Below are positions 1,599 to 23,716 of a stretch of 30,123 nucleotides of DNA, piece after piece; position 1 is the stretch's first letter; each line of letters begins with the position of its first letter. The stretch is from Sphingobium sp. (lineage in GTDB: Bacteria > Pseudomonadota > Alphaproteobacteria > Sphingomonadales > Sphingomonadaceae). A program made the position numbers and the translations under genes. The notes under the pieces are model-generated. The model made no database searches and had not been told where the DNA came from. It saw only the letters and a list, made by a program, of their open reading frames with translations. The DNA lies in the NCBI GenBank assembly GCA_017745115.1, contig JAGIAA010000036.1, positions 1 to 30,123 of the forward strand. Reading direction: 5' to 3'.

Positions 1599-1622
1599 AT
1601 TCGGTCCACTGAAGGAAGACGA

Positions 1623-1662
1623 ATCCCCGGTTGCAGCAATGCGCCGGGGATAACCCATCCCC
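1623..1662 (+). promoter_or_regulatory. Pair of mutually exclusive hairpins downstream of the G8-family gene
   Basis: ATCCCCGG (1623-1630) pairs perfectly with CCGGGGAT (1644-1651). The GGGGAT half (1646-1651) can instead pair with a second ATCCCC (1657-1662). There is no T-run, so this is not a standard intrinsic terminator. It may be a weak terminator, an mRNA end-stabilising hairpin or chance. Confidence 0.35.
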
Positions 1663-1864
1663 AAAACTGCGCCCGCAGCATTCCGCCCATATCCGGTCCG
1701 TCAAGACCGAGTGGTTCCGCGCACAAGTTGAGCATGCCCGATCTGATGTCGCTGGATCAAACGCCAATCCCTCACACAGCACCGTCCGCGTCGGCTCCTC
1801 CCTTGGGAAACGAACGGGGCCGGCGGGCGCAAAGCCGCGGCGTCGCGAAGGAGAAACCATCGCA

Positions 1865-6206: not shown

Positions 6207-6293
6207 ACCCGGTCCTTTTCCTGGCGCAGAAGCGCCGCGGAAAGGTGCTGCCCAGCTCGCGCCGACACAAGGGCCGCACGACGAATGGGCGAA

Positions 6294-6322
6294 TTGGTCG
6301 ACGGAAGGCCAATCAATATTGG
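6294..6322 (+). promoter_or_regulatory. Candidate operator region between kinase and regulator genes
   Basis: TTGGTCGAC (6294-6302) is close to the TTGGTCG copy at 7259-7265 upstream of the PEP-CTERM gene. It is followed by an inverted repeat CCAAT-caat-ATTGG (6309-6322). The location in the divergent kinase/regulator gap suggests autoregulation by the LytTR regulator; this is inference from position and the shared word. Confidence 0.3.
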
Positions 6323-6388
6323 CATGTCTCCGTCAGCTGTGCTTGAACCACGGTTCCGTGGGCCGACAGGAGCGAGCTGAATTCCTTC

Positions 6389-7207: not shown

Positions 7208-7252
7208 TCGATCCACCAAGGCTTAACCTCATAGACCGTTCGTCGCCGGATT

Positions 7253-7288
7253 CGACCATTGGTCGGCGCCGGTCGCGCGCTGGTCGAC
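7253..7288 (+). promoter_or_regulatory. Candidate LytTR operator (phased GGTCG repeats)
   Basis: GGTCG occurs at 7261, 7271 and 7282, that is, phased at about one and two helical turns. The outer copies, ATTGGTCGG (7258-7266) and GCTGGTCGA (7279-7287), are 21 bases apart, the spacing known for LytTR direct repeats. The first copy also sits in a 13-base palindrome, CGACCA-T-TGGTCG (7253-7265). The PEP-CTERM start is about 120 bases downstream. Binding by the adjacent regulator is inference. Confidence 0.45.
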
Positions 7289-7406
7289 TTATGCCGCACG
7301 TTGATCGCTGAAGCCCTCCCCCCAGTCCCGCTTTGGCCGCACCAGCAGCCGCAGATCGGCGAACATCCCGCCGATGGGTTCAATCAAGCATAGTGGGGAA
7401 TTTCAC

Positions 7407-8204
7407 ATGAAGACGACTGCATTCATCGCCCTGGCCGCCGCCAGCCTGTTCACCACAGCCGCCGATGCGACGCAGTTCGTCATCGTCCCGGACATCATCG
7501 GCGGCACCGGAACGCCGCCCTCCTACAAGGGGCCGAGCGTCCAGGGCGGCAATCTCGGAGTGGTCAATGACGGCGGCCGCGACGCCTTCGACGGCTTCGG
7601 CTTCTACAATGCGACGGGTGGCCTTGCTTTCTCGCGCCAGACCGAAGCCTTCATGGATCAGAATCTGTTTCGCTTCTTCGACACCTTCACCAACACATCC
7701 AGCGAACGCGTCGTTCAGACGGTGACCTTCTACGGCAATCTCGGCTCGGACGGCCGCACCAGGCAGGTCGCGGGCGGAAGCGGCTATTCGGTCACCTGCG
7801 AATATGTGACGGCCTGCGCGGCCGATCCGGTCGTCGCGACGATCTACGGCAACAACAATCTCGGCGTGCAGACGCTGAACGGCGAGTATCTGTCGATCGA
7901 TTTTACGCTGACACTCGATCCAGGACAAAGCGCGAGCCTGCTCAACTTCGCGTTCCTTGCCTCCGACACCAACGGCACCAATGCATCGGACGTCGCTCTG
8001 GCGATCGAGCGCGCCCATCAGCTGGTCGCCAATCCGATGCTCGCCGGCCTCACCGACGAGCAACTGCGCCGCGTGGCGAACTTCGACCTCGGCTTGCCTG
8101 CCGCTGCTGTCCCCGAGCCGGCAAGCTGGGCGTTGATGATCGGCGGCTTCGCCGTCGTCGGATCGGCCATGCGCCGGCGGCAGACGATCCCCGCCTTCTC
8201 CTGA
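7407..8204 (+). CDS. PEP-CTERM sorting-domain exported protein (PEPxxWA type)
   Basis: This 265-residue protein has a signal peptide (residues 1-about 21) and a classic C-terminal sorting signal: PEPASWA at 236-242, a hydrophobic helix and the basic tail MRRRQ (255-259). The body is beta-rich and has no domain I recognise; it contains CEYVTAC (131-137), possibly a disulfide. PEP-CTERM proteins are processed by an exosortase and usually belong to exopolysaccharide-rich surfaces; no exosortase is in this window. ATG 7407 is chosen because the signal peptide starts there, with GGGGAA upstream; the frame opens slightly earlier. It lies 199 bases after the LytTR regulator gene, with candidate regulator sites between, and 68 bases before a barrel protein gene. 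Confidence 0.88.
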   Translation: MKTTAFIALAAASLFTTAADATQFVIVPDIIGGTGTPPSYKGPSVQGGNLGVVNDGGRDAFDGFGFYNATGGLAFSRQTEAFMDQNLFRFFDTFTNTSSERVVQTVTFYGNLGSDGRTRQVAGGSGYSVTCEYVTACAADPVVATIYGNNNLGVQTLNGEYLSIDFTLTLDPGQSASLLNFAFLASDTNGTNASDVALAIERAHQLVANPMLAGLTDEQLRRVANFDLGLPAAAVPEPASWALMIGGFAVVGSAMRRRQTIPAFS

Positions 8205-9316: not shown

Positions 9317-9829
9317 ATGGAAACGAATAACGAGAATGCCTTCGATGTCTGGGCGAACCGTTTTCATCAGCAATTTGATAAAGGATCCCGACTGGAGAAG
9401 GAATTCCGGCTGACCCGGACGATCGTCGTGACGGCACGGCGCTGGACGACCTATACGGACGGCCTTGTGCGTGCGGCGACCGGCCATACGCGTGCGCGAT
9501 GGCAAACGCTTTCCGCGCTTACCTTCAGCGATGGCCCGGTCGGCACACTCGACCTGGCGCGGCGCATGGGGCTACGCTGGCCGACATTGATCCGCGTTCT
9601 CAACGAGCTTGAAACGGAAGGGCTGGTCGACCGGGCGCGCGACGAAACCGATGGCCGACGGCACCTGATCGCCATTACGCCGCAGGGGCGAGAACTCGTG
9701 GATCGCGTCCTGACCATCCTGAACCCGGCGCGAGCCGACGTCCTTTCCGACTTTTCCGACGAGGAACTGGTCGCGGCAGAGCGCGTGATCCAGCGCCTGC
9801 TGACCGTTCTCATCGCGCGAGACGGCTAA
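9317..9829 (+). CDS. MarR-family transcriptional regulator
   Basis: This 170-residue winged helix-turn-helix protein has TGHTRARWQTLSALTFS as the first domain helix. The HTH spans about residues 75-105 (LDLARRMGLRWPTLIRVLNELETEGLV), and the wing carries the family-typical DETDGRRHLIAITPQGREL (about 112-130). N- and C-terminal helices would form the dimer interface. MarR proteins usually repress nearby genes and are released by phenolic or other aromatic ligands, which suits the aromatic-catabolism genes in this window. The start at ATG 9317 has only a weak ribosome site. The TonB-dependent receptor gene begins 184 bases downstream on the same strand and is the likeliest target. Confidence 0.92.
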   Translation: METNNENAFDVWANRFHQQFDKGSRLEKEFRLTRTIVVTARRWTTYTDGLVRAATGHTRARWQTLSALTFSDGPVGTLDLARRMGLRWPTLIRVLNELETEGLVDRARDETDGRRHLIAITPQGRELVDRVLTILNPARADVLSDFSDEELVAAERVIQRLLTVLIARDG

Positions 9830-10013: not shown

Positions 10014-13000
10014 ATGGCGAATAATCAGCGTTTGCGCATGTGCACGCTCGCGTTCCTGGCGAGCAGTGCGATTGGTTTGACTTTTTGTGGTCAGTCTGCA
10101 CGAGCGCAGAATGTTGCGCCCGCGAACGCGCTGCCTCCTGCCGACACTCAGGCGGATGCATCCGAGAGCGCGATCGTCATTACGGGCTCGCGCATTGTCC
10201 GCCGCGACTATGACACCGACAGCCCGCTGGTCACCGTCTCGGCCGACACGATGAAGAACACGGCCGAGGTCAGCCTCGACCAGTCGCTCAACAAGCTTCC
10301 CCAGTTCGTGCCGGGATCGAATCAGTTCACCAGCGGTCAGGACACGCAGTCGACGCCGACCAACAGCCCCGGCATCTCGACCGTCAATCTGCGTGGCCTT
10401 GGCCAGAATCGCACCCTGGTCCTGCTGGACGGCCGCCGCACGCAGCCCGCCAATGCGAGCCTCGTCGTCGACATCAACACGATTCCCAAAGCCGCGATCG
10501 ACGGCGTCGAGGTGATTACCGGCGGCGCCGGCGCCACCTACGGCGCCGATGCCGTAGCCGGTGTCGTCAACTTCAAGCTCAAGCGTCACTTCGCCGGTAT
10601 TTCGCTCGACGGGCAATTCGGGCGCACCTCCCGAGGTGACGGCGACCAGGGCTATGTCTCGGCCCTGATCGGCGGAGATTTCGCCGGCGGCATGGGCAAC
10701 GCCATGCTTGGCCTCAGCTACGAGCAGCGCAGCCAGGTCTATTCACGCAACCGCGGCTGGCACCTGCCGGCCTATACCGACCCGGGCACCGCCGGCGAGG
10801 ATACCTTCCCGAACTTCGGCGGGGCCTCGAGCACGATCTTCGCGTCGCTGCCCAACGCGCCGGCCGGCAGCCCCTACACACAGGCAGCCATCGATCAGGT
10901 CTTCACCGCCAAGGGCTATTCACCGGGCGACGTGCTTCGCACTGCAACGCTGTACTTCAATCCCGCCGCGACGACGGCCGGCGCCACCCTCTTCTCGATC
11001 GCGCCGGGCGCCGTCTCGGGCAAGCAGGCGCCGGGCTATACGGGCGCCGTGGGCCCCGATTACAAATATCTGTCGAACGGTTCGCTTGCCAGCAACGCGC
11101 GCAATGGCTTCATCTCGCTGCCCCTGACCCGCTATTCCGCATTCGCCTCGGCCTATTACGACGTCTCCGACAATGTTGAGGCCTATCTCCAGGCCAACTT
11201 CAACCAGAGCGACACCAGCACCGAGATCAGCAACTTCACACCCGCGGCGCTGCAATGGTCCGTCGCCATTCCCTATGATGCCGCGACCAATGGTGTCGCC
11301 TCGGGGCACCCCGTTCCGACCGAACTCGCGACCATTCTCAATGCGCGCGCCAATCCCAATGCGGCATGGGGGCTCAACAAAGAGCTCAATTATATGGGGC
11401 CGCGGTCGATCAAGACGAAAACCTACACCTATGAAATCCTGGCGGGCGTGAGAGGAAAAGTCGGGGTCGGCGACATCACCTACGACCTGTTCGCCTCGCA
11501 TGGCCGCACCAACCAGAATGTCGACTATTTCGGCCATGTGGACCTGGCGCGATACCAGACGCTGATCTCCATGCCGAACTATGGCGCCAATGCCGACTTC
11601 AACGTACCGAATATCGGGCGCCTGGCCCACTGCACGAGCGGCCTCAATCCGTTCACCACGACGGTGGTGAGCCAGGATTGCAAGGACATCATCAACGCCA
11701 ACATCAACACCACCACCGACCTCATCCAGAACCAGGTCGAGCTGGATTTGCAGGGCGGCATCACGGAGCTGCCCGCTGGCGAGCTGCGCTTCGCCGTCGG
11801 CGCGGATTATCGGGACGACAAGTTCACCTTCAACCCGGACCCCGCGCTCTCCACGAACAACATCACCTCCTTGACCATCGGATTGTTCGATGTCGGCGCG
11901 ACGAGCGGCAAGACGACCGTCAAGGAAATCTATGGCGAGTTGTTGATCCCGGTCCTGAAGGATGTGCCCTTCGCACAATCCCTCTCGCTCAATCCCGGTT
12001 ACCGCTATTCGGACTATAATACCGCCGGCGGCGTCTCGACCTGGAAGATCACCGGCGACTGGGGCATCAACAGCTACATCAAGGTTCGCGGCGGCTATCA
12101 GCGCGCCAACCGCGCACCAAACGTCGCCGAGCTCTTCCAGCCGTCCGTCTATCTGACAGTGCCCTGGCCCGATCACGATCCCTGCTCGATCGTGACGCGC
12201 GCCGCCTATGGCAATGTCGCGGCCAATCCGGACCGCGCCAAGGTGCAAGCGCTTTGCACGACGCTCTCGGGCGGTTTCCCGATCAACAGCACATTTACCG
12301 GCAATCAGTCGGTCTACTTCCCGCTCGGACGCGACCAGCAGACCGGCAATCCCAATCTGCGCACCGAAAAGGCCAGCACCTGGACTGCGGGCATGGTGCT
12401 CAGATCGCCCGCCAAATCGGGTGCTTTGAGCCGCATCACGCTCTCGGTCGACTATTACAACATCAAGATCGAAGGCGCGATCGCGCCGGCCACGACGCAG
12501 TTCGTTTATCAGGAATGCTTCAATGGCTTCGGCACCAACCCCACCTACGATCCCAATTACGAATATTGCCAGCGGATCATCCGCTCATCGACCAACGGCT
12601 TCTGGCTCGCGACCAAGGCATCGTTCCAGAATCTGGGCATGATCAGCACATCGGGCGTCGATGCAGCGCTCGACTGGCGGATCGACGCGCCCGGCCTGGG
12701 CGGCGCGCGCGGCTCGGCCTACGCCAATGTCGTGTTCAACTATCTCGGCAAATATGATGTGCAGAACAATCCGGGCGGCAAGATTTTCGACTATGCCGAC
12801 TCGATCGGCTCCCCCATCTCGGCGCCGCCCTATGGCGCGCAGTTCCGCTGGAAGCTGTACAGCCGCCTTGGCTATGACTTCGGCGTGGGTGGCCTCGAAC
12901 TTGGCTGGCGTCATCTGCCGAACGTGCGCAATGTGGCGCTCGTGACGAACACGGCTTCGACCGCACTGGCGACCAAGGCCTACGATCTCTTCGACCTCTC

Positions 13001-13184
13001 GGGCCATGTCGCCATCGCCAAGCGCATCCAGCTGCGGGGCGGCATCGACAATCTGTTCGACCGCAATCCCCCCGTAGTCGGCGTAACGCCGGGCGTCACC
13101 AACGCTGCGGGCGTCACGGACATTGCCGGCTCCTATGACGTGCTCGGTCGCCGCTTCTACATCGGCGCACAGGTCAAGTTCTAA
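10014..13184 (+). CDS. TonB-dependent receptor (large, catabolic type)
   Basis: This 1056-residue outer-membrane receptor has a signal peptide ending near ARA-QN (residue 31) and a TonB-box-like SAIVITGSRI. A plug domain spans about 55-190, with STVNLRGLGQNRTLVLLDGRR and VEVITGGAGATYGADAVAGVVNFKLKR, and a long 22-strand barrel ends in GRRFYIGAQVKF with C-terminal Phe. Length and plug style match the sphingomonad receptors often found beside genes for aromatic or oligomeric substrates rather than classic siderophore receptors. Several Cys residues in extracellular-loop regions may form disulfides. GAGGAGG lies just before ATG 10014. It is preceded by the MarR gene and converges on the ring-cleavage gene cluster, whose substrate it may import; the substrate is inferred, not shown. 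Confidence 0.93.
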   Translation: MANNQRLRMCTLAFLASSAIGLTFCGQSARAQNVAPANALPPADTQADASESAIVITGSRIVRRDYDTDSPLVTVSADTMKNTAEVSLDQSLNKLPQFVPGSNQFTSGQDTQSTPTNSPGISTVNLRGLGQNRTLVLLDGRRTQPANASLVVDINTIPKAAIDGVEVITGGAGATYGADAVAGVVNFKLKRHFAGISLDGQFGRTSRGDGDQGYVSALIGGDFAGGMGNAMLGLSYEQRSQVYSRNRGWHLPAYTDPGTAGEDTFPNFGGASSTIFASLPNAPAGSPYTQAAIDQVFTAKGYSPGDVLRTATLYFNPAATTAGATLFSIAPGAVSGKQAPGYTGAVGPDYKYLSNGSLASNARNGFISLPLTRYSAFASAYYDVSDNVEAYLQANFNQSDTSTEISNFTPAALQWSVAIPYDAATNGVASGHPVPTELATILNARANPNAAWGLNKELNYMGPRSIKTKTYTYEILAGVRGKVGVGDITYDLFASHGRTNQNVDYFGHVDLARYQTLISMPNYGANADFNVPNIGRLAHCTSGLNPFTTTVVSQDCKDIINANINTTTDLIQNQVELDLQGGITELPAGELRFAVGADYRDDKFTFNPDPALSTNNITSLTIGLFDVGATSGKTTVKEIYGELLIPVLKDVPFAQSLSLNPGYRYSDYNTAGGVSTWKITGDWGINSYIKVRGGYQRANRAPNVAELFQPSVYLTVPWPDHDPCSIVTRAAYGNVAANPDRAKVQALCTTLSGGFPINSTFTGNQSVYFPLGRDQQTGNPNLRTEKASTWTAGMVLRSPAKSGALSRITLSVDYYNIKIEGAIAPATTQFVYQECFNGFGTNPTYDPNYEYCQRIIRSSTNGFWLATKASFQNLGMISTSGVDAALDWRIDAPGLGGARGSAYANVVFNYLGKYDVQNNPGGKIFDYADSIGSPISAPPYGAQFRWKLYSRLGYDFGVGGLELGWRHLPNVRNVALVTNTASTALATKAYDLFDLSGHVAIAKRIQLRGGIDNLFDRNPPVVGVTPGVTNAAGVTDIAGSYDVLGRRFYIGAQVKF

Positions 13185-13192
13185 AGCGCCGG

Positions 13193-13241
13193 GCGCGGCG
13201 CGGCATGTGGCATCGAGCGGTGCCACATGCCGGCGCCGCGC
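13193..13241. terminator. Long bidirectional hairpin between convergent genes
   Basis: GCGCGGCG plus CGGCATGTGGCA (13193-13212) pairs almost perfectly, apart from one inserted base, with TGCCACATGCCG plus GCGCCGCGC (13221-13241), leaving an 8-base loop. It sits between the receptor stop and the aldehyde dehydrogenase stop and can serve both directions, although no T-run follows. Confidence 0.6.
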
Positions 13242-13247
13242 AACGGA

Positions 13248-14669
13248 TCAGTAGCCGAGAACAGCCTTCACCTCGAGATATTCCTCGATGCCGAACACGC
13301 CATATTCGCGGCCGTTGCCGGACTGGCGATAGCCGCCGAAGGGTGCGTAGCCCGACCAGGCGGGGAAGTTGATATGGACCTGGCCGGCGCGAATCTGGCG
13401 AGCCACGCGCCGGGCGCTCTCGATGTCGGCGGACTGGACGTGCGAGCTGAGGCCATAGACCGTCGCATTGGCGATGCGGATCGCGTCCGCCTCGTCGTCA
13501 TAGGGCATGATGACCAGCACCGGCCCGAAGATTTCCTCCTGGGCGATCCGCATGTCGGTGGTGACCTCGGAGAAGATGGTCGGCTGCGCGAAGTGGCCGC
13601 GGTCGAGGCCCTGCGGCCGGCCGGGCCCACCGCAAATGAGCTTGGCGCCCTCGTCGATGCCGGACCGGATGAGGCCCTGCACCTTGGCGAACTGGGGCGC
13701 ATTGGCGAGCGCGCCGAGCACGGTGGCTTCATCGAGCGGGTCGCCGACGACGATGGCGTTAGCCGCCTCGGCGGCGAGCGCCTCCACTTCGGCGAGGCGC
13801 GACCTCGGCACAACGATCCGGGTCGGTGCCGCGCAGGACTGGCCGACATTGCGCATGCCGCCAAGCACGGCCTTGGGGACGGCGCCCGCGAAATCCGCGT
13901 CGTCGAGGAAGATATTGGGCGACTTTCCGCCCAGCTCCTGGATGACGCGCTTGACCGTCGGCGCGGCAGCCTGCGCGACGAGCACCCCGGCCCGGGTCGA
14001 GCCGGTGAACGAGACCATGTCGACATCGCGATGCGCCGACATGGCGGCGCCGACGACGTCTCCGGTCCCGTTGACGAGGTTGAACACGCCGGGCGGCGTC
14101 CCGGCATCGTGCATGACCTGCGCGAACAGCAAGGCGGTGAAGGGCGAGAGTTCGCTGGGCTTGAGCACGACGGTACAGCCCGTGGCGATGGCCGGGGCGA
14201 CCTTGGCGGTGACCTGATAGAGTGGCCAGTTCCACGGCGTGATCGCCGCGACCACGCCGACCGGCTCCTTGCGAACATGGATGCCGTTGACCTGTGACTC
14301 GAACTCGAAGTCGCGCAGCACGTCGATCGCCACGCGGACATGCTCGATGCCGAAATGGCATTGGCCGGCCCGGGCAAAGCTGATTGCCGAGCCCATTTCG
14401 GCGACGATGGACTGGGCGAATTGCTCGGCGCGCTCCTCGAGCAAGTCCCTGATGCGGATCAGCAGGGCGAGCCGGTCCGCGACCGGGCTCTGCGAGAAGG
14501 ACGCGAACGCGCGCTTCGCAGCCGCCACGGCGAGATCGACATCAGCGGCCGAACCGGCTGCGACATGGCCGATCACCTCTTCCGAAGCGGGATTGTACAC
14601 CGGGATCGCCGGGGCATTCGAGCGGTCCACCCATGCTCCGTCCAGATAGAAGCGCATGTCGTCGGGCAT
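13248..14669 (-). CDS. Aldehyde dehydrogenase, probable 4-hydroxymuconic semialdehyde dehydrogenase
   Basis: This 473-residue NAD(P)-dependent aldehyde dehydrogenase shows ITPWNWPL (cofactor region, about 143-150), KPSELSP (170-176), FTGSTRAG, general base E245 in QELGGKSP and catalytic C279 in GQSCAAPTR. The C-terminal FGGYRQSGNGREYG block is also intact. The start at 14669 has GAGGAGG upstream. It lies 21 bases downstream of the two-CxxC gene and in the same direction as the hydroquinone dioxygenase genes. In known hydroquinone pathways (hap and pnp clusters), such a dehydrogenase oxidises 4-hydroxymuconic semialdehyde to maleylacetate, so this role is inferred from context; the sequence alone supports only the aldehyde dehydrogenase family. 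A maleylacetate reductase is absent from the window. Confidence 0.88.
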   Translation of the reverse strand: MPDDMRFYLDGAWVDRSNAPAIPVYNPASEEVIGHVAAGSAADVDLAVAAAKRAFASFSQSPVADRLALLIRIRDLLEERAEQFAQSIVAEMGSAISFARAGQCHFGIEHVRVAIDVLRDFEFESQVNGIHVRKEPVGVVAAITPWNWPLYQVTAKVAPAIATGCTVVLKPSELSPFTALLFAQVMHDAGTPPGVFNLVNGTGDVVGAAMSAHRDVDMVSFTGSTRAGVLVAQAAAPTVKRVIQELGGKSPNIFLDDADFAGAVPKAVLGGMRNVGQSCAAPTRIVVPRSRLAEVEALAAEAANAIVVGDPLDEATVLGALANAPQFAKVQGLIRSGIDEGAKLICGGPGRPQGLDRGHFAQPTIFSEVTTDMRIAQEEIFGPVLVIMPYDDEADAIRIANATVYGLSSHVQSADIESARRVARQIRAGQVHINFPAWSGYAPFGGYRQSGNGREYGVFGIEEYLEVKAVLGY

Positions 14670-14690
14670 CAGTCCTCCTCGTCATCTTGT

Positions 14691-15599
14691 CTAGTCGCCG
14701 GCCTTGTTACCCGCAGTGGACTGGATAGAGATAGGCCCTATCAGCGAGGCAACGATCGGCGCGCCACCCGCGACATCGGCCCGGCGCGCGTCCATGCGCA
14801 GCTCGTTCATCGCGATATGGGCCGTCACATGCCGGACAAACGGTAGCACGGCGCCTTCGCCCCAGTCCTGATGCTCGATATCGAACGCGAGCGTATCGCC
14901 GCGGATCGCGAAATTCTCGAGCGAGCCCATGGTATAGGGGTTGTCGCAGGGACCGCAGGCGAGGCCGAACAGCTTCTCGCCGTCCTGGCGGATGAGGAAA
15001 TACTGCTTGTCCCGACCGAAGCCGAAGCCGATCCACACGCCGACAACATCGGCGGCAGTGAGGGAGCGCCAGGGGCCCGGCTGGAGATACGGCGCGGGCC
15101 GGCCTCCGCCACCCCCGCCGGCAACCGCGGTGGATTTGAGCACAGGCACAGGCGGCGCGCCCGGCGGCAGGATTGCGGTCGGGAATATGGATGGCGGCGG
15201 GCCGCGCGTGTCCTTGATCGCGATGCGCTCGACCGGCTTGCCGTCCGAACCTCGCCCGCCGCTGATTACCAGCCTGCCGCCGGACAGTTTCGCGCGCAGA
15301 TGCTCTTCCGACGCAAGGGCGCCTGCCGGCGTGAAGCGGCGCACGGTAAAGGTCAGCCCGTCGGTCTCGTTGAAGCGGCCCTCGACTCGCGCGAGCGTGG
15401 TGCCGTCGGCGCAATGCGTGCAGGCGATGCCGCTGACCGCGCCGCCGTCACGGATCACGAATTCATAGATCTGCGGCGGGCCGGCTTCGATGCGCCAACC
15501 GCCGCGATAATGATCGGCGCTTTCGGCACCTGCACGCGATGCGGCGAGCAGCGCCACGCCGGTCCATATGGCGACCGCGATCGAACGGATGCCCGGCAC
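14691..15599 (-). CDS. Secreted protein with two CxxC-containing repeats, unknown function
   Basis: This 302-residue protein begins at a GTG (15599), only 4 bases after the large dioxygenase subunit stop; no good ATG exists nearby. A signal peptide (residues 1-about 25, ending SRAGAES) indicates export. Two similar modules follow: GIACTHC with an aromatic strand before it (about 34-90, Cys60/Cys63), and GLACGPC (about 186-265, Cys215/Cys218). They are separated by a Pro- and Gly-rich linker (about 133-175). No His follows either CxxC, so these are not haem c motifs; disulfide or metal binding is possible. I do not recognise the family. Its place inside the ring-cleavage gene series suggests a periplasmic accessory role for the same substrate. 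Confidence 0.75.
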   Translation of the reverse strand: MPGIRSIAVAIWTGVALLAASRAGAESADHYRGGWRIEAGPPQIYEFVIRDGGAVSGIACTHCADGTTLARVEGRFNETDGLTFTVRRFTPAGALASEEHLRAKLSGGRLVISGGRGSDGKPVERIAIKDTRGPPPSIFPTAILPPGAPPVPVLKSTAVAGGGGGGRPAPYLQPGPWRSLTAADVVGVWIGFGFGRDKQYFLIRQDGEKLFGLACGPCDNPYTMGSLENFAIRGDTLAFDIEHQDWGEGAVLPFVRHVTAHIAMNELRMDARRADVAGGAPIVASLIGPISIQSTAGNKAGD

Positions 15600-15603
15600 G
15601 ACT

Positions 15604-16593
15604 TTAGCCGAAGTCGACAGGATAGGGCTTGAGCTCGCCCGAAGCGTAGCGGGTCTCGAGACCAGGCGTGCCGTTCTCCATGACCATCAGCATCGCGCGC
15701 TTGGGCGCGAAGCCCTGGTGCCGGATATCGGCCGGCATCGCACACACGTCGCCCGCCTTCATGACGATACGGCCCCGCGGCGCGCCGCTATTCTTGTCGG
15801 CGATGTTCCAGTGAATCTCGTCGCTCAGCTGGATAAACCACTCGTTGCGATCATTGCCGTGAATCACCGGGAGCATATGCTCCTCGGAGGTCACGCAGCA
15901 GATATTCGCACGGGTGATGGCGCTGATCGACGGGTTCCAGGTCACGTCCGAGCGGGCGATATGCTCGAAGAGATTGATCGCATGGAGTTGCCCCTCGAAG
16001 CCCGGCTCACATTCGATGTCGGGCTTGTCATAGCTCAAATCGGCAAAGGCGCGGTTGACCGGATGGCCGGTCGCGTCGGAGCGCACGGCCTTGTCACCCT
16101 CCAGCCCGAGCATGCGATCGGCGGCGATGAAGGCACGCAGCAGCGGATCGGTGCGCTCCTTGCCCTTGGGGCCGATCGGCGTTCCGGTTTCCAGCGGCGC
16201 GTTCAGCGGATCGTAGCCCTCGCTGATCCAGTCGCGCGAAATCGTCTCGAAGGCTTGCGCCACCGTCTCGGCCTTGAAGGTTTCGAGCAGGTCGATGCCG
16301 GCGTCCTTGCAGCCGCGGTCGTAGGAGCCGGCGAAGATGTCCACCGTGCCGTAATGGTTGGTGGTGCCGAAAATATCGTCGAAGAAGATCCAGCCGTAGA
16401 AGAAGCCCCAGCCGATATCGCGCACCATCGCCCGCAGGAAGCGATCGATCTCGATGATGTGACTGCCCTTGGGCCAGGTCACATGCGCGAAATATTCGTC
16501 GCGCCGGAAGGTGAAGCTGCCGAGCCTGAAGCGCGCATAGCCGGTGTCGGGATCGGTGCCGAGCTTCTCGACCGCTGCGTCCAAAACGTCCAT
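15604..16593 (-). CDS. hapD: Hydroquinone 1,2-dioxygenase, large subunit
   Basis: This 329-residue (about 37 kDa) protein has the C-terminal cupin fold of 3-hydroxyanthranilate dioxygenase type: HGNDRNEWFIQL (245-256), AGDVCAMPADIRHQGF (280-295) and a final MENGTPGLETRY stretch. Candidate iron ligands are N247, E251 and H292. The N-x3-E...H spacing equals that which I recall for the large subunit PnpD of the Pseudomonas hydroquinone dioxygenase (Asn258, Glu262, His303). The enzyme cleaves hydroquinone next to one hydroxyl to give 4-hydroxymuconic semialdehyde, using Fe(II) and O2 as an alpha2beta2 complex. The start at 16593 has AGGAGAGG; the open frame extends upstream without support. The small subunit gene is immediately upstream (73 bases). 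Size and pairing match the 38 + 19 kDa enzymes described from sphingomonads and pseudomonads. Confidence 0.85.
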   Translation of the reverse strand: MDVLDAAVEKLGTDPDTGYARFRLGSFTFRRDEYFAHVTWPKGSHIIEIDRFLRAMVRDIGWGFFYGWIFFDDIFGTTNHYGTVDIFAGSYDRGCKDAGIDLLETFKAETVAQAFETISRDWISEGYDPLNAPLETGTPIGPKGKERTDPLLRAFIAADRMLGLEGDKAVRSDATGHPVNRAFADLSYDKPDIECEPGFEGQLHAINLFEHIARSDVTWNPSISAITRANICCVTSEEHMLPVIHGNDRNEWFIQLSDEIHWNIADKNSGAPRGRIVMKAGDVCAMPADIRHQGFAPKRAMLMVMENGTPGLETRYASGELKPYPVDFG

Positions 16594-16666
16594 CGATCCT
16601 CTCCTTGACTCCTGTTTGCCGCATGTCCCGAGCCGTCGGGCGAACGCTCGACTTGAAAATGCTACA

Positions 16667-17158
16667 TTATCCCAGCGTGCAGATGTCGGACCAGCGCTTG
16701 ACGGTCGCGGGACCATCGACCGTCTGGATGATCGTCACAGCGGGCTTGCGCGAAACGAGCTGATAGGCCGCGCCCTCCGGCAGCAGCACCTGATGACCAC
16801 GGCGCGCGGTCACCCGGCCCATCGCCGGCCCGTTGGGCTGGGCACCGAGCTGGATCGCGCCGCCCTCATGGCTCGGCACCTGGCCGTCCGCCAGCTTGAT
16901 GAAGTTGAAGGTAACCTCCCCATCCATCACCAGCGCGAACTCGTCATGCGGCGCGGCGAACCAAGGCGAGACGCCCTCGACCCGCATCACTTCCGCGACA
17001 TATTCGAGATTCTGCACCACCGCGACGCGCTCGAACGGCTGCGCCGCACCGGCGACTTCGAAGACGTTCGAAAAGGCATATTTGCGAAGATCGTCGTCGA
17101 GCTCGATCAGGCCCTTCTCATAGGAATCGAGCGACCCGACATGCGTGCGATAGGCCAT
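16667..17158 (-). CDS. hapC: Hydroquinone 1,2-dioxygenase, small subunit
   Basis: This 163-residue (about 18 kDa) cupin-like protein contains FAAPHDEFALVMDGEVTFNF (about 78-97), GRVTARRGHQVLLPEGAAYQL (about 122-142) and a TIIQT strand. Size and neighbourhood match the small subunit of type II hydroquinone dioxygenases (HapC/PnpC/HqdA-type). In the known structure the small subunit is a degenerate cupin that supports the metal-bearing large subunit. The start at 17158 has GGGAGAGG upstream on the minus strand. The 176-base gap to the GST gene stop may contain a separate promoter (a minus-strand TTGACT is present), so the dioxygenase genes may not rely on the GST promoter. Confidence 0.82.
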   Translation of the reverse strand: MAYRTHVGSLDSYEKGLIELDDDLRKYAFSNVFEVAGAAQPFERVAVVQNLEYVAEVMRVEGVSPWFAAPHDEFALVMDGEVTFNFIKLADGQVPSHEGGAIQLGAQPNGPAMGRVTARRGHQVLLPEGAAYQLVSRKPAVTIIQTVDGPATVKRWSDICTLG

Positions 17159-17334
17159 CGCAATCCTCTCCCGTTCTTCCCGGATCCGTCGGCATTTGCC
17201 GTACGGGGGAATTGTTGCGCCTCGCCGCCGGGAAAGTCAAAACGGCTCTGGCGTCCCTTTCATCCAACGCAAATCGTCAACATATGCGCGAGCATGGGGA
17301 GGGACGGACGCTCAAGCGACGATCATGCCCAGAA

Positions 17335-18177
17335 TCAGGCTTTTGCCGCCTCACCTTTGAGCCGCGCGGTCTCGGCGGCCGTCGACTGGACGCCGGTGTT
17401 GCGCGTCGCGAGGCCGCCGACGGCGCCGCCCTTGATGAACGGTTCGGGATCGCCGTCACGCAGCTTCAGGCCGAACAAGGGCGAGAGGCCGGGGTGACGC
17501 CCGAGGCCGCCATAGAGGTCGAAACCGCGCTCGATCCAGTCGCGCAGCGGATCGTCTTCGGTCAGCACGGGCGTATCGGCGACCGAGGCGGTGAACAGGA
17601 ACACCGCGAGCAGGCGATAGTCGGCATAGTTGGGCGTGTCGCCGCCGAACCATTTGTTCTCGGCCAACACATTGCGCATGAGTTGCAGCGTCGGCGGCAC
17701 CTTGGGCAGGCGATCCTCGCGACCGACGATGATGTCCTCGATCTTGCGGCCGAACATGCGTTCGCGCGAGCTGGTCACATACTCATGATCCTGCGGCAAG
17801 GCGCGGTCGCGATACTGCTTGATGAAGCAGGTCATCCACGGGCTGATCGCCGCGCCCCAGAGCCATGCTTCCATGCCCTGGGTCAGCGCCTTGACGCTGG
17901 CATTGCCGATCAGCGTCGGGCGGTCGGGATAGGTTTGGTCGAGATATTCGGCGATCAGCCAGCTATCGAGCACCCATTTGCCATCGTCGACAATCGCCGG
18001 CAACCGCTCGGTGACGCCGCCCGTGCGCTCGGGAATGCCGGTGAAGCCGCCCTCGACGATGTCGAGATCGAACCCCTTGTGCGCGACGGCATATTTCGTC
18101 GCCCAGACGAAGGGGCTGATCGTCGCGCCATGGGCCAGCTGCAGGTCGTACAACGTGATCCTGTTGTCCTTCGCCAT
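17335..18177 (-). CDS. ligE: LigE-type beta-etherase-like glutathione S-transferase
   Basis: This 280-residue protein starts with MAKDNRITLYDLQLAHG; the ribosome site AAAGGAGAGG precedes 18177, and longer start choices to 18366 lack one. Against my memory of Sphingobium SYK-6 LigE/LigP (281 residues), the two are closely alike throughout: TISPFVWATKYA (catalytic-region Ser21), GGFTGIPERTGG, LPAIVDDGKWVLDSWLIAEYLD (cis-Pro60, D71-S72), YPDRPTLI, LPQDHEYV, GREDRLPKVPPTL, TEDDPLRDWIERGFDLYGGLGRHPG and LRDGDPEPF. LigE enzymes use glutathione to cleave the beta-aryl ether of lignin-type ketones, releasing a phenol. Identity to a true beta-etherase rather than a related GST (dehalogenase or isomerase) cannot be settled here. 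Its placement upstream of a hydroquinone dioxygenase suggests that the phenol released may be hydroquinone. Confidence 0.82.
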   Translation of the reverse strand: MAKDNRITLYDLQLAHGATISPFVWATKYAVAHKGFDLDIVEGGFTGIPERTGGVTERLPAIVDDGKWVLDSWLIAEYLDQTYPDRPTLIGNASVKALTQGMEAWLWGAAISPWMTCFIKQYRDRALPQDHEYVTSSRERMFGRKIEDIIVGREDRLPKVPPTLQLMRNVLAENKWFGGDTPNYADYRLLAVFLFTASVADTPVLTEDDPLRDWIERGFDLYGGLGRHPGLSPLFGLKLRDGDPEPFIKGGAVGGLATRNTGVQSTAAETARLKGEAAKA

Positions 18178-18208
18178 GGCAGCCTCTCCTTTGCTTGCTA
18201 ACAAGTCC

Positions 18209-18231
18209 GGTGCATTCCATAGGCTTGCACC
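18209..18231. promoter_or_regulatory. Inverted repeat in the divergent GST / alcohol dehydrogenase promoter region
   Basis: GGTGCA (18209-18214) and TGCACC (18226-18231) form a perfect 6+6 inverted repeat with an 11-base spacer, in the 152-base gap between divergent start codons. This resembles a dimeric-regulator operator. A second dyad, GCGCC-AA-GGCGC, follows at about 18237-18248. No regulator gene lies in this gap. Confidence 0.4.
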
Positions 18232-18329
18232 AACGCCGCGCCAAGGCGCGAAATGAAATGTGAACGGCCCGGTCTTTTTCGAGGACAAGGCTATCGCTAG
18301 AACGGACGACCTATGGGGAGGGGAAGCAC

Positions 18330-20456
18330 ATGATCCGCATCGCGCCATCCGTTCTGCTCGCGGCATCGCTCGCGCTCATGCTGGCCGCGTGCAACGCCCA
18401 GCAGCGCTTCGGCGAGATCGATCAGGCGCGGCTCGACCAGGCCGATACGGACGACGACAACTGGCTGAGCTATGGCCACGGCTATAGCGAGCTGCGCTAT
18501 TCGCGGCTCGACCAGGTCAATGACAGCAATGTGAAGCAGCTCACCCTCGCCTGGTCCGCGCCGCTCGACACCCGGCGCGGACAGGAAGCGACGCCGATCG
18601 TCGTCGACGGCATCATGTATACCTCGACCGCCTGGTCCAAGGTGATGGCGCTCGACGCAGCGACCGGCAAAGTCCTGTGGAGCTTCGATCCGCAGAATAT
18701 CGGTTCCAAGGGTGCCCATGCCTGCTGCGATGTCGTCAATCGCGGCGTGGCGGTCTGGAAAGGGCGTGTGTTCGTCGGCACCATCGACGGGCGGCTGATC
18801 GCGCTCGATGCCAGGACAGGCGCGAAGATCTGGGACGTGGTCACCGTCGACCAGACCAAGCCCTATACGATCACCATGGCGCCCCGCGTGGTGCGCGACA
18901 AGATCTTCATCGGCAATTCGGGCGCCGAACTCGGCGTGCGCGGCTATCTCTCGGCCTATGACACCAACACCGGCAAGCTGGTCTGGCGTTTCTACACCGT
19001 GCCCGGCGACCCTGCGAAGGGACCGGACGGCACCGTCTCCGACGAGGCCATCGAAAAGATCGCGCGGCCAACCTGGTCCGGCACCAACTACTGGAAGCTC
19101 GGCGGCGGCGGCACGGTCTGGGACAGCGTTGTCTATGACAAGGACCTGAACCAGCTGCTGGTCGGCGTGGGCAACGGCTCGCCCTGGAACCATCACTGGC
19201 GCAGCGCGGGCAAAGGCGACAATCTCTTCCTGTCGTCGATCGTTTCGCTGGATCCCGACACCGGCAAATATAAGTGGCACTATCAGATAAACCCCGGCGA
19301 AAGCTGGGATTACACGGCCACGCAGCAGATCATGCTCGCCGACCTCAAGATCGACGGCAAGGACCGCAAGGTGCTGATGCAGGCGCCGAAGAACGCCTTC
19401 TTCTACGTGATCGACCGCACCAGCGGGAAGCTCATCTCGGCCGAGCCCTATGCCCGGCAGAACTGGGCCAAGGGCATTGACCTCAAGACCGGCCGGCCGA
19501 TCGAGAATCCCGGCATCCGCTATGACAAGGGCCCGGCGCTGGTCATCCCCTCGGGCATCGGCGCGCATGCCTGGATGCCGATGAGCTATTCGCCCAAGAC
19601 CGGCCTCGTCTACATCCCGGCGATGGAGCATCCGCTTGTCTATGGCGACTCCAACCCCTTCGAGATCCATGAGGGCCGCTGGAACACCGGCGTCTCCTTC
19701 CTGGCGCCGCCGCCCCTGCCCGGCTTGCCCGCAACGCCCGAGGGCCGGCGCGCAGCGCTGACCGCGATGACCAAAGGCAAGCTGGTGGCATGGGATCCCG
19801 TCGCCCAGAAGGCACGCTGGGAAATCAAGCGCGACTGGCCGTGGAACGGTGGCACGCTCGCGACCGCCGGCAATCTCGTCTTCGAAGGCACTGCCCATGG
19901 CACGTTCGAGGCCTATTCGGCCGACAAGGGCCAGAAGCTCTGGTCGTTCGCGACCGGGCGCGGCACGCTGGCAGGCCCCGTGACCTATCGCGTCAATGGC
20001 GAACAATATGTCGTCGTGCTGGCGGGCTATGGCGGATCGATGGGCATGGCGACCAGCACCGACTTCATGCGCGAGAAGATGCCGAACGGCGTGATCCTCG
20101 CCTTCAAGATCGGCGGCAAGGCGGCACCGTTGCCGCGCGAGACCATCCCACTCGATACGCCGCAACCGAGCAACGAGCGCTTCACGCCCGCGCAGGTCGC
20201 GACCGGCGCCAAATTCTATGGCACTTATTGCGCCATCTGCCATGGCGGCCCGGTCAATCCGGACTTGCGCCGCTCGGCCCTGCTGCAGAGCAAGGATGCC
20301 TTTCAGCAAGTCGTCATCGGCGGCTCGCTGTCGCAGAACGGTATGGCGAGCTTCGCGGCCTATATGAAGCCGGAGGACGCGGAAGGCATTCGCGCCTATC
20401 TGAACGGCCAGGCCAAGGCCTTGCTCGCCGAGGAAAGCAGGAAGCCCGCTCATTGA
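18330..20456 (+). CDS. PQQ- and haem c-dependent quinohemoprotein alcohol dehydrogenase (lipoprotein)
   Basis: This 708-residue protein carries a lipobox (LMLAAC, Cys21), so it should be anchored in the periplasmic leaflet. The eight-bladed beta-propeller PQQ domain follows, with WSYGHGYSELRYS-like start, tryptophan-docking repeats (ALDAATGKVLWSF and similar), the vicinal disulfide C132-C133 in AHACCDV, and the catalytic-region W326-D327. A C-terminal cytochrome c domain contains C634-AI-C637-H638. This is the type II quinohemoprotein alcohol dehydrogenase layout, which passes electrons from PQQH2 through its own haem. It oxidises primary or secondary alcohols, here of unknown identity. GGGGAGGGG sits before ATG 18330. 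It is divergent from the GST gene and is followed 123 bases later by an aldehyde dehydrogenase with its own promoter, a natural alcohol-to-acid pair. Confidence 0.93.
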   Translation: MIRIAPSVLLAASLALMLAACNAQQRFGEIDQARLDQADTDDDNWLSYGHGYSELRYSRLDQVNDSNVKQLTLAWSAPLDTRRGQEATPIVVDGIMYTSTAWSKVMALDAATGKVLWSFDPQNIGSKGAHACCDVVNRGVAVWKGRVFVGTIDGRLIALDARTGAKIWDVVTVDQTKPYTITMAPRVVRDKIFIGNSGAELGVRGYLSAYDTNTGKLVWRFYTVPGDPAKGPDGTVSDEAIEKIARPTWSGTNYWKLGGGGTVWDSVVYDKDLNQLLVGVGNGSPWNHHWRSAGKGDNLFLSSIVSLDPDTGKYKWHYQINPGESWDYTATQQIMLADLKIDGKDRKVLMQAPKNAFFYVIDRTSGKLISAEPYARQNWAKGIDLKTGRPIENPGIRYDKGPALVIPSGIGAHAWMPMSYSPKTGLVYIPAMEHPLVYGDSNPFEIHEGRWNTGVSFLAPPPLPGLPATPEGRRAALTAMTKGKLVAWDPVAQKARWEIKRDWPWNGGTLATAGNLVFEGTAHGTFEAYSADKGQKLWSFATGRGTLAGPVTYRVNGEQYVVVLAGYGGSMGMATSTDFMREKMPNGVILAFKIGGKAAPLPRETIPLDTPQPSNERFTPAQVATGAKFYGTYCAICHGGPVNPDLRRSALLQSKDAFQQVVIGGSLSQNGMASFAAYMKPEDAEGIRAYLNGQAKALLAEESRKPAH

Positions 20457-20507
20457 TTCGCGTCGGCAGATAGGTTGCATTTTGCGACCGGGAAATGGAA
20501 GACTCCC

Positions 20508-20536
20508 CTGTCAACGCGCGCTGGAATTGCTATACT
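20508..20536 (+). promoter_or_regulatory. Extended -10 promoter for the aldehyde dehydrogenase gene
   Basis: TATACT (20531-20536) is preceded by TGC, making an extended -10 (TGCTATACT). A -35-like CTGTCA lies at 20508-20513 with a 17-base spacer. Initiation near 20543 gives a leader of about 37 bases to ATG 20580. Confidence 0.5.
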
Positions 20537-20579
20537 GCATAACGTCCGACGCGACCCTCAGCGTCTTCAGGAGAGCGAC

Positions 20580-22052
20580 ATGGAAAATTATTTGAAGACC
20601 ATCGGCGGAATCAAGGCACGCGGAGCCGCGGGCCTGTTCATCGATGGCGAGTGGCGCCCCAGCTCGGGAAGCACCGTGCTCGACGTGGTCGCGCCGCATA
20701 CCGAGGAAACCGTCCTGCAATATATCGAGCCGACGGCGGCCGATATGGATGCAGCCGTCGCCGCTGCCCGCCGCGCCTTCGACACCGGGCCCTGGCCGCG
20801 CATGACTCCGCCGGAGCGCGGCGTCTACCTCAAGAAGATCGGCGACCTCCTGCAGGCGCGCATGCCCGAGCTCGCCGAAGCCTGGACCGGCCAGGTCGGC
20901 GCGGTCATCAGCTTTACCAGCAAGGCCAGCTACCAGTGCCCCGGCCTGTTTCACTTCTATGGCGGTCTCTGCGACACCTATAAGTTCATCGACGAGCGCA
21001 TCGGCTCGCAGGGCGGCAATCGCGTGCGCGTGGTCAAGGAGCCGGCCGGCGTCGTGGCGGCGGTCACGCCGTGGAACGCGCCGCTGGTGCTGCTGATCTA
21101 TAAGGTCGCCGCCGCGCTCGCCGCGGGCTGCACGCTGGTCTGCAAGCCCTCGCCTGAGTCGCCGGTCGACACGCACATCCTGGCCGAGTGCATCGAGGAA
21201 GCGGGCCTGCCCAAGGGTGTGTTCAACATGCTGCCCGGTGGCCGCGAGGTGGGCGACCATCTCATCCGCCACCCCGGCATCGACAAGATCAGCTTCACCG
21301 GATCGACCGTGGCGGGCAAGCATATCGCCGGCGTCGCGGCCGAGCGCCTGGCGCGCGTCTCGCTGGAGCTGGGCGGCAAGTCGGCGGCGATGATCCTCGA
21401 CGATGCGGACATCGACCATGTTCTCAAGACGCTGGTGCCTTATTCGATGCCGATCACGGGCCAGGTCTGTTTCTCGCTGACTCGCGTGCTGGTCTCCAAG
21501 AACCGCGAGGCCGAGTTCGTCGACGCCTATACCAATGCCATCTCCAAGGTGAAGGTCGGCGATCCATTCGAAGCCGATGTGGGCATCGGCCCGCTCGCCA
21601 TGCAGCGCCAGCTCGATCGCGTGCTCGGCTATATCGAGAAGGGCAAGAATGAGGGCGCCAAGCTCGCGCTGGGCGGCGGCCGTCCTTCCGGTCTCAATCG
21701 CGGCTATTTCGTCGAGCCGACAATCTTCACGAATGTCGACCCCAATATGACCATCTTCAAGGAAGAGATCTTCGGCCCTGTCGTCTCGGTCGTCAGCTAT
21801 GACAATGAGGCCGATATGATCGCCAAGGCGAACGACACGAGCTACGGCTTGCATGGCGCCGTCTATACGCAGGACCCGGAGCGCGGCTTCGGCGTCGCGC
21901 GCGAATATCGTGCAGGCTCGGTCGCGGTGAATCACATGGCTGTCGACATCCACATGCCGTTCGGCGGTTTCAAGCAGTCCGGTATCGGGCGCGATGGCGG
22001 CATCGAAGGCCTGGAGAACTACACCGAAACCAAGGCCGTCTACTTCGGCTGA
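20580..22052 (+). CDS. NAD(P)-dependent aldehyde dehydrogenase
   Basis: This 490-residue protein starts with MENYLKTIGG after the ribosome site CAGGAGAG; the earlier frame to 20475 is unsupported. Aldehyde dehydrogenase landmarks are complete: VTPWNAPLV (163-170), CKPSPESP, SFTGSTVAGK (238-247), E263 in LELGGKSA, C297 in GQVCFSL and FGGFKQSGIGRDGG near the C-terminus. The substrate is not evident. A periplasmic PQQ alcohol dehydrogenase gene directly upstream suggests it oxidises the aldehyde or a derived aldehyde after uptake, but it has its own promoter and could act on another intermediate. It differs clearly from the minus-strand aldehyde dehydrogenase at 13248-14669 in active-site sequence, so the two are not a recent duplication. 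Confidence 0.9.
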   Translation: MENYLKTIGGIKARGAAGLFIDGEWRPSSGSTVLDVVAPHTEETVLQYIEPTAADMDAAVAAARRAFDTGPWPRMTPPERGVYLKKIGDLLQARMPELAEAWTGQVGAVISFTSKASYQCPGLFHFYGGLCDTYKFIDERIGSQGGNRVRVVKEPAGVVAAVTPWNAPLVLLIYKVAAALAAGCTLVCKPSPESPVDTHILAECIEEAGLPKGVFNMLPGGREVGDHLIRHPGIDKISFTGSTVAGKHIAGVAAERLARVSLELGGKSAAMILDDADIDHVLKTLVPYSMPITGQVCFSLTRVLVSKNREAEFVDAYTNAISKVKVGDPFEADVGIGPLAMQRQLDRVLGYIEKGKNEGAKLALGGGRPSGLNRGYFVEPTIFTNVDPNMTIFKEEIFGPVVSVVSYDNEADMIAKANDTSYGLHGAVYTQDPERGFGVAREYRAGSVAVNHMAVDIHMPFGGFKQSGIGRDGGIEGLENYTETKAVYFG

Positions 22053-22186: not shown

Positions 22187-23716
22187 TCACCGCCTCAGAC
22201 GCTTCCAGCCGATCCATACCCCGCTGATCGAGGTGACGAGCCCGAGGATCGAAAAGGCCCAGAGAAGCACGTCCCACAGCGGCCGGCGAAGCGTCAGGAC
22301 ATTCAAGTCCCATTTGTGGAACATGTCGTAGAGCCAGCGGTAAGTCCGGCGGCGGCTGTCGACACCGTTCACGATCTCGCCGGTTACCGGATCGAGATAG
22401 AGCCAGTTCCTGCCCGGATCGTCAAAGCGCAGGCGCAGGACCGGCAGCCGGGGCCTGGCGCCGATGTCGTAATAATAGGCGTCGGGTTCGGTCATGAGTG
22501 TGGCGTCGGTCAGCTTGCCGGCGGGGATGAGTCCGCGGGCCGCTTGTTCGATCCTGTCGATTTGCGCCTGTGCCGGCACCAGACCGGGCAGGGTCAGTAC
22601 CCGCCGTTCGCCCTTGCCATCGAACAGCGTCACGACCGGCAGTCCGGCATGGGCCGAGAAGCGCGCCAGCCGCGTGCCCTGTGCCACCGCGCCGAGCCGT
22701 CGCAGATCGATGGCGGGAATGTCCGTGCTCGCCGAATAATGCTGCTCGACGCCGTCCGGTGGACCGGACGCTTCGAAGAGATGCCCCGGATCGACGGACA
22801 GCCAGCCACTGAAGATCCAGAGCAGCAGCGCCAGGCCGCCGACCAGGCCCGCGATATGATGCCACAGCATCCAGCCATGATAGGGAACCATGCGCCCGCC
22901 TTTGAAGCGGCGCTTCCCGATGCGCGTCCGCAGGATGCCAATCCAGATGCCGGTCAGTGCGGCCGCGATGCACGGTCCCGAGACCCACATCACCACCTGG
23001 CGCCAGGCTTCATTGTCCTGTCGAAGCAGCCTCGGATAGATCCAGTGCGGGACCGACCCCAGCCAGTTCCAGAAGCGCTCGCTGCGTGTCGTCGCCTGCA
23101 CCACGCTGCCGGTCGAGGACGAGACATAGAGCTGCGTGCCCGGCGGACCGGCGAGCGAGACCTTCCACAGCGGCCGATGGCGGTCGAAGCCGCCGGCCAC
23201 GGTCCACTGGTCGCTCTCGATGGGATGGACGTCCAGCACGTCCGCACGGCCGAAGCGCGACGCGACCCGACCGGCATAAGCCGCGTTGACGACGGGCTCC
23301 GGTACACCCTGCTCCGCCGCGGCGGACAGGCGCTTGCCGTCCCAACCCAGCACGCGCCAGACCGGATGCCCGTCGCGCATCTCCAGCTCGAGGCTACGCG
23401 GCGTGCCCTTGAACGAAATGGGCGGCGGCACATCGACCTTCGCCCAATCAATGGCCTCCTGCCCCGCAACCTTCTCGCCGAGCGAAAGCGAGGGATAAGG
23501 CACGTAGATCATGACGAGGCCCGAGGCGAACCACATCGCGAAGAGCAGGCAGCTTCCGATGCCCACCCAGCGATGGATCAGATAGAGCCAGCGCTTGAGG
23601 ACGTGGCGCCCGCGCCAGGACGCCTGGGAACCGCGTCCGGCTGCCGCCGCCCTAGAAATTGGCACGGAGCGAGACATCGAAGGAGCGCGGCCGCCCCAGG
23701 ATCCATTGCTCGTCAT
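22187..23716 (-). CDS. PepSY-associated membrane protein (ferric-siderophore reductase-like)
   Basis: This protein of about 509 residues has four membrane segments: near LYLIHRWVGIGSCLLFAMW (about 43-70), an Ala-rich one around CIAAALTGIWIGIL, one around WHHIAGLVGGLALLLWIF, and the C-terminal WDVLLWAFSILGLVTSISG. Periplasmic PepSY regions lie between. Conserved His residues in the membrane helices (IHRW, WHH) are typical of PepSY_TM proteins such as FoxB and PiuB, which act with TonB-dependent receptors in releasing iron from siderophores. The gene overlaps the end of the receptor gene by about 65 bases. The start is uncertain: ATG 23716 and ATG 23677 both lack a clear ribosome site. Co-transcription with the receptor is near certain. 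Confidence 0.85.
   Translation of the reverse strand: MTSNGSWGGRAPSMSRSVPISRAAAAGRGSQASWRGRHVLKRWLYLIHRWVGIGSCLLFAMWFASGLVMIYVPYPSLSLGEKVAGQEAIDWAKVDVPPPISFKGTPRSLELEMRDGHPVWRVLGWDGKRLSAAAEQGVPEPVVNAAYAGRVASRFGRADVLDVHPIESDQWTVAGGFDRHRPLWKVSLAGPPGTQLYVSSSTGSVVQATTRSERFWNWLGSVPHWIYPRLLRQDNEAWRQVVMWVSGPCIAAALTGIWIGILRTRIGKRRFKGGRMVPYHGWMLWHHIAGLVGGLALLLWIFSGWLSVDPGHLFEASGPPDGVEQHYSASTDIPAIDLRRLGAVAQGTRLARFSAHAGLPVVTLFDGKGERRVLTLPGLVPAQAQIDRIEQAARGLIPAGKLTDATLMTEPDAYYYDIGARPRLPVLRLRFDDPGRNWLYLDPVTGEIVNGVDSRRRTYRWLYDMFHKWDLNVLTLRRPLWDVLLWAFSILGLVTSISGVWIGWKRLRR

Follow-up and report, generated by a model that had tools for sequence, protein, structure and literature searches.

A LigP-type beta-etherase gene beside a two-subunit hydroquinone dioxygenase of a separate clade in Sphingobium sp.

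The etherase and dioxygenase genes

We analysed a stretch of 30,123 nucleotides from Sphingobium sp. (GenBank assembly GCA_017745115.1, contig JAGIAA010000036.1), called the window from here on, in which the gene of a LigE/LigP-like glutathione S-transferase (GST) lies beside the genes of a two-subunit hydroquinone dioxygenase. A preliminary description of this DNA had listed five genes in one direction, namely the GST, the small and the large dioxygenase subunit and, downstream of the dioxygenase, a secreted CxxC protein and an aldehyde dehydrogenase (ALDH). An open reading frame check of the window found all five where they had been placed, all on the minus strand (Table 1).

Table 1. Genes of the etherase-dioxygenase region and its flanks, with window coordinates
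Feature	Coordinates	Strand	Basis
LigP-type glutathione S-transferase (predicted beta-etherase), 280 aa	17335..18177	-	NF042997, identity, tree
Hydroquinone dioxygenase small subunit, 163 aa	16667..17158	-	phmmer to 5m21_A, 4zxa_A
Hydroquinone dioxygenase large subunit, 329 aa	15604..16593	-	phmmer, PF18191, clade, N247/E251/H292
Secreted double-CxxC protein, two similar halves	14691..15599	-	motif, homologue alignment
Aldehyde dehydrogenase (first ALDH)	13248..14669	-	PF00171, 524 bits
PQQ-dependent alcohol dehydrogenase with C-terminal cytochrome c	18330..20456	+	family matches; divergent from GST
Second aldehyde dehydrogenase	20475..22052	+	PF00171, 518 bits
TonB-dependent receptor	10014..13184	+	PF00593, PF07715; convergent with first ALDH
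MarR-family regulator	9317..9829	+	PF12802

With 508 bits, the GST clears the cut-off of 440 set for NF042997, the beta-etherase equivalog of NCBIfam. Its identity is 90.7% to the product of L001, a locus near 3.52 Mb in the SYK-6 genome, 62.9% to SYK-6 LigE and 28.0% to LigF. The LigE-type enzymes of SYK-6 are named in passages of PMC6369299 as LigE and LigP, the latter being SLG_32600. Two matches to the LigE/P family are present in the SYK-6 genome and one of them is LigE, which adjoins LigF in its stretch (L215), so by elimination L001 is the LigP locus. In a tree of 90 rows, built with a quick method, the window GST and the SYK-6 LigP locus share an 8-row set inside the LigE/LigP group and apart from LigF (Shimodaira-Hasegawa-like approximate likelihood ratio test support, SH-aLRT, 98), in agreement with the earlier naming of the GST as LigE/LigP-like. 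Judged by its sequence, it is a LigP-type beta-etherase, for which glutathione-dependent ether cleavage is predicted.

Both dioxygenase subunits, encoded by adjacent genes, match two solved enzymes over nearly their full length. The small subunit reaches 159 bits to 5m21_A and 156 bits to 4zxa_A in phmmer, and the large subunit, which also matches PF18191, reaches 401 bits to 5m21_B and 397 bits to 4zxa_W when scored in a 370-aa form. We take 5m21 to be HqdAB of Sphingomonas sp. TTNP3 and 4zxa to be PnpCD of Pseudomonas sp. WBC-3. These matches bear out the family that the preliminary description had given, type II hydroquinone dioxygenases, and the residues it had named, N247, E251 and H292, are correct for the 329-aa form that starts at 16593; we presume this Asn/Glu/His set to be the iron ligands. 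The longer reading frame, beginning at 16716, would run into the small subunit gene.

In a tree of 141 rows the large subunit falls into a clade of 96 rows (support 100), here called clade A, which has a stem length of 0.50 changes per column and includes neither 5m21 nor 4zxa; this tree, too, was made with a quick method, which gave warnings on long branches elsewhere in the tree. Between 77 clade-A members and 37 others, 11 positions are fixed differently, among them N250 beside the ligand E251. The window dioxygenase is thus assigned to the type II hydroquinone dioxygenase family, in a separate clade that holds neither solved enzyme, with hydroquinones as its predicted substrates.

The gaps within the row are 176 nt between the GST and the small subunit, 73 nt between the subunits, 4 nt from the large subunit to the CxxC gene and 21 nt from there to the ALDH, so that the last three genes are tightly packed. 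A promoter scan of positions 13000-18500 gave one match, located in the gap between GST and small subunit, against 0.9 expected by chance. A strict operon including the GST was considered and rejected, as neither promoter nor terminator signals exceed chance in the scans. On the other side of the GST, the divergent gene of a pyrroloquinoline quinone (PQQ)-dependent dehydrogenase begins 152 nt away and is followed by that of a second ALDH. The G+C content is even along the window (0.605-0.671 in 1500-base steps), and thus, as far as this weak evidence goes, nothing points to inserted foreign DNA or to a chimera.

Distribution in other genomes

We surveyed the flanks of 80 LigP/LigE loci, the best 80 of 109 relatives from species genomes (29 relatives lie outside the survey). 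The flanks covered up to 10 kb a side, amounting to at least 20 kb in 51 loci and to less than 10 kb in 14, and were rechecked at E ≤ 1e-5. Neither dioxygenase subunit was found in the flanks of any of the 80 loci. From the other side, we examined the surroundings of the dioxygenase in 13 genomes whose large subunit is close to that of the window (82-94%), in stretches of varying size (down to 9.6 kb for genome G464), and the etherase GST directly adjoins the dioxygenase in none of these 13 clade-A loci. The adjacency of beta-etherase and dioxygenase in the window is found nowhere else among these 80 and 13 loci.

Other parts of the row recur. In ten of the 13 clade-A genomes a close ALDH (74-83%) adjoins the subunit genes, either downstream or divergently. 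In the other three (G007, G592 and G659) this position is occupied by a PQQ dehydrogenase. The CxxC gene stands between large subunit and ALDH, as in the window, in three genomes (G030, G558 and, reversed, G559). Furthermore, LigE lies about 30 kb from the dioxygenase in G131 and about 32 kb in G349, with most of the intervening genes common to both, while G030 and G558 carry LigF-like GSTs 14-24 kb from it and, in the same range, a PQQ dehydrogenase (47-49% to that of the window) and an ALDH (38-39% to its second ALDH). In S. xanthum a gallate dioxygenase gene (L094:11148-12404; 663 bits, cut-off 412) adjoins the small subunit.

A side observation concerns G349 (L146, L147, L098) and G131 (L143, L144, L099), in which a region of some 35 kb reaching from LigE to the dioxygenase is conserved. 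Along with a flavin monooxygenase and a FadL-type porin it encodes five PQQ dehydrogenases and two esterases, and it looks like a large lignin-compound catabolic island.

At genome level the picture was taken from 396 sampled genomes of the order, searched at E ≤ 1e-40 for the large subunit and at E ≤ 1e-60 for LigE/P. The large subunit occurs in eight genomes, four with clade A (87-94%) and four with classic enzymes (41-55%), and LigE/P occurs in 31. All four clade-A carriers have LigE/P, as does one of the four classic carriers (G339); four of four against 31 of 396 has a hypergeometric probability of 3e-5, kinship ignored. Eight clade-A carriers were tested directly genome-wide, and together with G558, G559, G591, G592 and G659 they make up the 13 genomes above. 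Four of the eight had first been reached via LigP/LigE loci (G002, G004, G007, G030) and four via the dioxygenase (G051, G131, G349, G464). LigE/P is present in all eight, and so is a LigF homologue (60-91%). Kinship aside, the genome-level association of beta-etherase and clade-A dioxygenase exceeds chance. Of the linkage drawn in the preliminary description, conserved adjacency thus fails, and what stands is co-occurrence within genomes, with LigE 30-32 kb away in two of them.

Possible source and fate of the hydroquinone

In four instances (G131, G349, G051 and L074) LigE is followed, at a distance of about 4 kb, by a flavin monooxygenase gene; a PQQ dehydrogenase gene separates the two, and an alpha/beta hydrolase gene comes after the monooxygenase. 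Among solved enzymes, PnpA and HspB are closest to the monooxygenase; the former replaces a para nitro group, and the latter takes off the acyl chain located para to a hydroxyl group. In the order sample, where at most four candidates were scored per genome and monooxygenase counts are lower bounds, it occurs in at least eight of the 396 genomes (E ≤ 1e-60; 38-100% identity overall), including all four clade-A carriers. The four other clade-A genomes tested have it as well, hence eight of eight carriers, and it was found in none of the eight LigP/LigE genomes lacking the dioxygenase that were tested with them. All but one of the eight carriers have two copies; a hydrolase adjoins just one kind and was seen in nine loci.

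From enzyme families, gene order, clade and co-occurrence, all read directly from the genomes, we infer a chemistry and a direction. The window may belong to a system for the catabolism of beta-aryl ethers (lignin) in which one branch opens a hydroquinone-type ring, a reading that we put forward tentatively and at somewhat less than even chance. The PQQ dehydrogenase would make an alpha-ketone or oxidise a gamma-alcohol. LigP would displace the aryl ether with glutathione, and removal of the thiol would then leave a p-hydroxyaryl ketone; since LigP yields the ketone as its glutathione adduct, according to passages of PMC3961688, a thioetherase would have to act beforehand. A PnpA/HspB-like monooxygenase and its alpha/beta hydrolase, expected elsewhere in the genome, would swap the side chain for a hydroxyl group, which would give hydroquinone, most likely methoxyhydroquinone. 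The dioxygenase would open this ring, and the first ALDH is proposed to act on the resulting semialdehyde by oxidising it. The ketone half is favoured as the source of the hydroquinone because the monooxygenase resembles HspB and PnpA and has a hydrolase partner, which suits the removal of a side chain.

Another source could be the leaving group. LigP releases guaiacol from model ketones, according to passages of PMC3961688, and if it frees guaiacol or a similar phenol here, the monooxygenase could para-hydroxylate that phenol to methoxyhydroquinone for the dioxygenase. The presence of LigE/P and the monooxygenase in all eight carriers fits this route equally, but simple hydroxylation would leave the partner hydrolase in nine monooxygenase loci without a use. 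PnpA and HspB, moreover, attack carbon atoms at which a side group able to leave is already in place. We regard this origin as improbable.

The preliminary description had instead let the ether cleavage itself release hydroquinone, plain or substituted, for ring opening by the dioxygenase on the way to maleylacetate. The adjacency in the window and the enzyme families, which were correctly named, speak for it. The adjacency is not conserved, however, and the monooxygenase, for which that route has no need, accompanies every tested carrier and points to the ketone half or to a released phenol. The release of hydroquinone by ether cleavage is therefore left without support, and we hold this route to be very improbable.

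The end product of that route fares no better. Maleylacetate reductase has no match in the window and none in the 13 clade-A stretches, against five of six classic stretches. A search of 14 genomes at E ≤ 1e-20 gave matches in nine, one at 52% (G030) and the rest at 30-36%. Of the eight clade-A carrier genomes, only G030 thus has a close reductase; three more have matches at 32-36% and four have none. The matches at 30-36% are probably other iron alcohol dehydrogenases, among which a divergent reductase could hide. Because the reductase is missing beside clade A and a close one is found in a single carrier genome, a passage from hydroquinone over maleylacetate to beta-ketoadipate is not the obvious fate of the clade-A product, and maleylacetate as the product is doubtful.

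Several results weigh against a catabolic system that joins etherase, monooxygenase and dioxygenase. Besides the lack of conserved adjacency, a LigE- or LigF-type GST was seen in the examined stretch of only four of the 13 carriers, which form two pairs of apparent relatives, and the LigF match in G030 has an internal stop. Neither the monooxygenase nor the hydrolase is encoded within the window. The monooxygenase was first noticed in G131, G349 and G051, so that only the other five carriers test the link, and in those five it is not near the dioxygenase. In addition, of the 27 LigE/P genomes in the order sample that lack clade A, at least three have the monooxygenase (G006, G062, G187), and G273 has it although LigE is missing there. 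Finally, protocatechuate 4,5-dioxygenase (LigA family) is present in all 24 genomes examined, so the classic route is available; a bypass forced by missing protocatechuate cleavage was ruled out on the same count.

A serious rival is chance adjacency or a shared niche, in which LigP serves beta-ether cleavage, the dioxygenase and ALDH serve another p-hydroxyaromatic compound, and their co-occurrence reflects kinship and an aromatic-degrading lifestyle. It is favoured by the 0 of 80 LigP/LigE loci with the same adjacency, by the separation of dioxygenase, ALDH and etherase genes in most carriers, by the 176-nt gap in the window and by a co-occurrence test that ignores kinship among carriers limited to a few genera. 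It explains less well that three unlinked genes co-occur in eight of eight tested carriers, that four of the 13 carriers show linkage within about 32 kb, and that gallate dioxygenase, an enzyme of lignin monomers, adjoins the small subunit in S. xanthum. We consider it a real possibility, though it too falls short of even chance.

Known sphingomonad beta-ether catabolism passes through beta-hydroxypropiovanillone and then vanillate before it reaches protocatechuate, and an O-demethylase is required. Extended to the sphingomonads, the favoured ketone route would be a second beta-aryl-ether branch, made up of LigE/LigP, monooxygenase and hydrolase, methoxyhydroquinone and the clade-A dioxygenase, which would bypass vanillate, O-demethylation and protocatechuate. 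In this general form we think it rather unlikely. Among the open-access papers searched we found none that pairs a beta-etherase, or a beta-aryl ether, with a hydroquinone dioxygenase, and passages of PMC8861056 merely suggest a Baeyer-Villiger monooxygenase for another ether ketone. If true, the (methoxy)hydroquinone branch would be a further ring-opening outlet for lignin dimers, would give a role to clade-A dioxygenases, which are common in metagenomes, and would offer enzymes for lignin conversion.

Another arrangement was seen in C. salegens (G030, L223:4133-12346), where the monooxygenase-hydrolase pair is lined up with two GST genes sharing a 4-nt overlap. One of these GSTs has 36% identity with LigF across 242 columns, and the two GSTs are possibly a two-subunit etherase. 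The same row also includes a thiamine-diphosphate enzyme.

Neighbouring genes and comparison with known systems

The four cysteines of the double-CxxC protein are invariant in 34 aligned homologues, and the family has at least 297 matching members. The protein has no Pfam or NCBIfam match. Its structure model is weak (two small beta domains, predicted local distance difference test score 68) and found no PDB match at E ≤ 1e-3, the best being a single-chain dimeric streptavidin at 3.3e-3. Among 94 Sphingobium genomes one has a match at E ≤ 1e-40 (L156), near TonB receptors and not near a dioxygenase.

The closest solved structure to the PQQ dehydrogenase is 1kv9. Five further genomes (G131, G349, G051, G007 and that of L074) carry, in the neighbourhood of LigE, PQQ dehydrogenases 63-67% identical to that of the window. 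The Pfam match of the second ALDH begins at residue 60, so its true start is probably further in. Homologues of the TonB receptor occur close to the dioxygenase in S. nicotianae (54%) and in G659 (36%), and the receptor is a possible uptake partner. Likewise, the MarR protein is a possible regulator of the region.

Further out, positions 26448-28793 encode a molybdopterin-binding oxidoreductase subunit, with 34% homologues a few kb from LigE in L077 and L150. A PepSY protein and a TonB siderophore-type receptor at 22187-25844 probably belong to iron uptake. The genes at 3-3187 and 5073-8204, for a CEMIP-like beta-helix protein, a ferritin-like protein, a sensor histidine kinase and a PEP-CTERM protein, are apparently unrelated.

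Compared with SYK-6, the window GST is of the same family as LigP and LigE and of the same clade as LigP. Unlike the window, SYK-6 has no large-subunit match in its genome and no dioxygenase within 10 kb of LigP. With HqdAB and PnpCD the window enzyme shares the two subunits, the full-length match and the N-x3-E...H motif; it differs in its clade, in the 11 fixed positions and in a cluster without maleylacetate reductase. PnpA and HspB, whose substrates derive from nitrophenol and nicotine, can be set beside the putatively lignin-linked monooxygenase that accompanies clade A and is absent from the window. Passages of PMC12607616 describe Pseudomonas sp. SG-MS2, in which the breakdown of pinoresinol, a lignin-type dimer, ends in protocatechuate and methoxyhydroquinone. 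As far as these passages go, this route differs from the window in proceeding without a beta-etherase, and it provides a precedent for methoxyhydroquinone from a lignin-type dimer.

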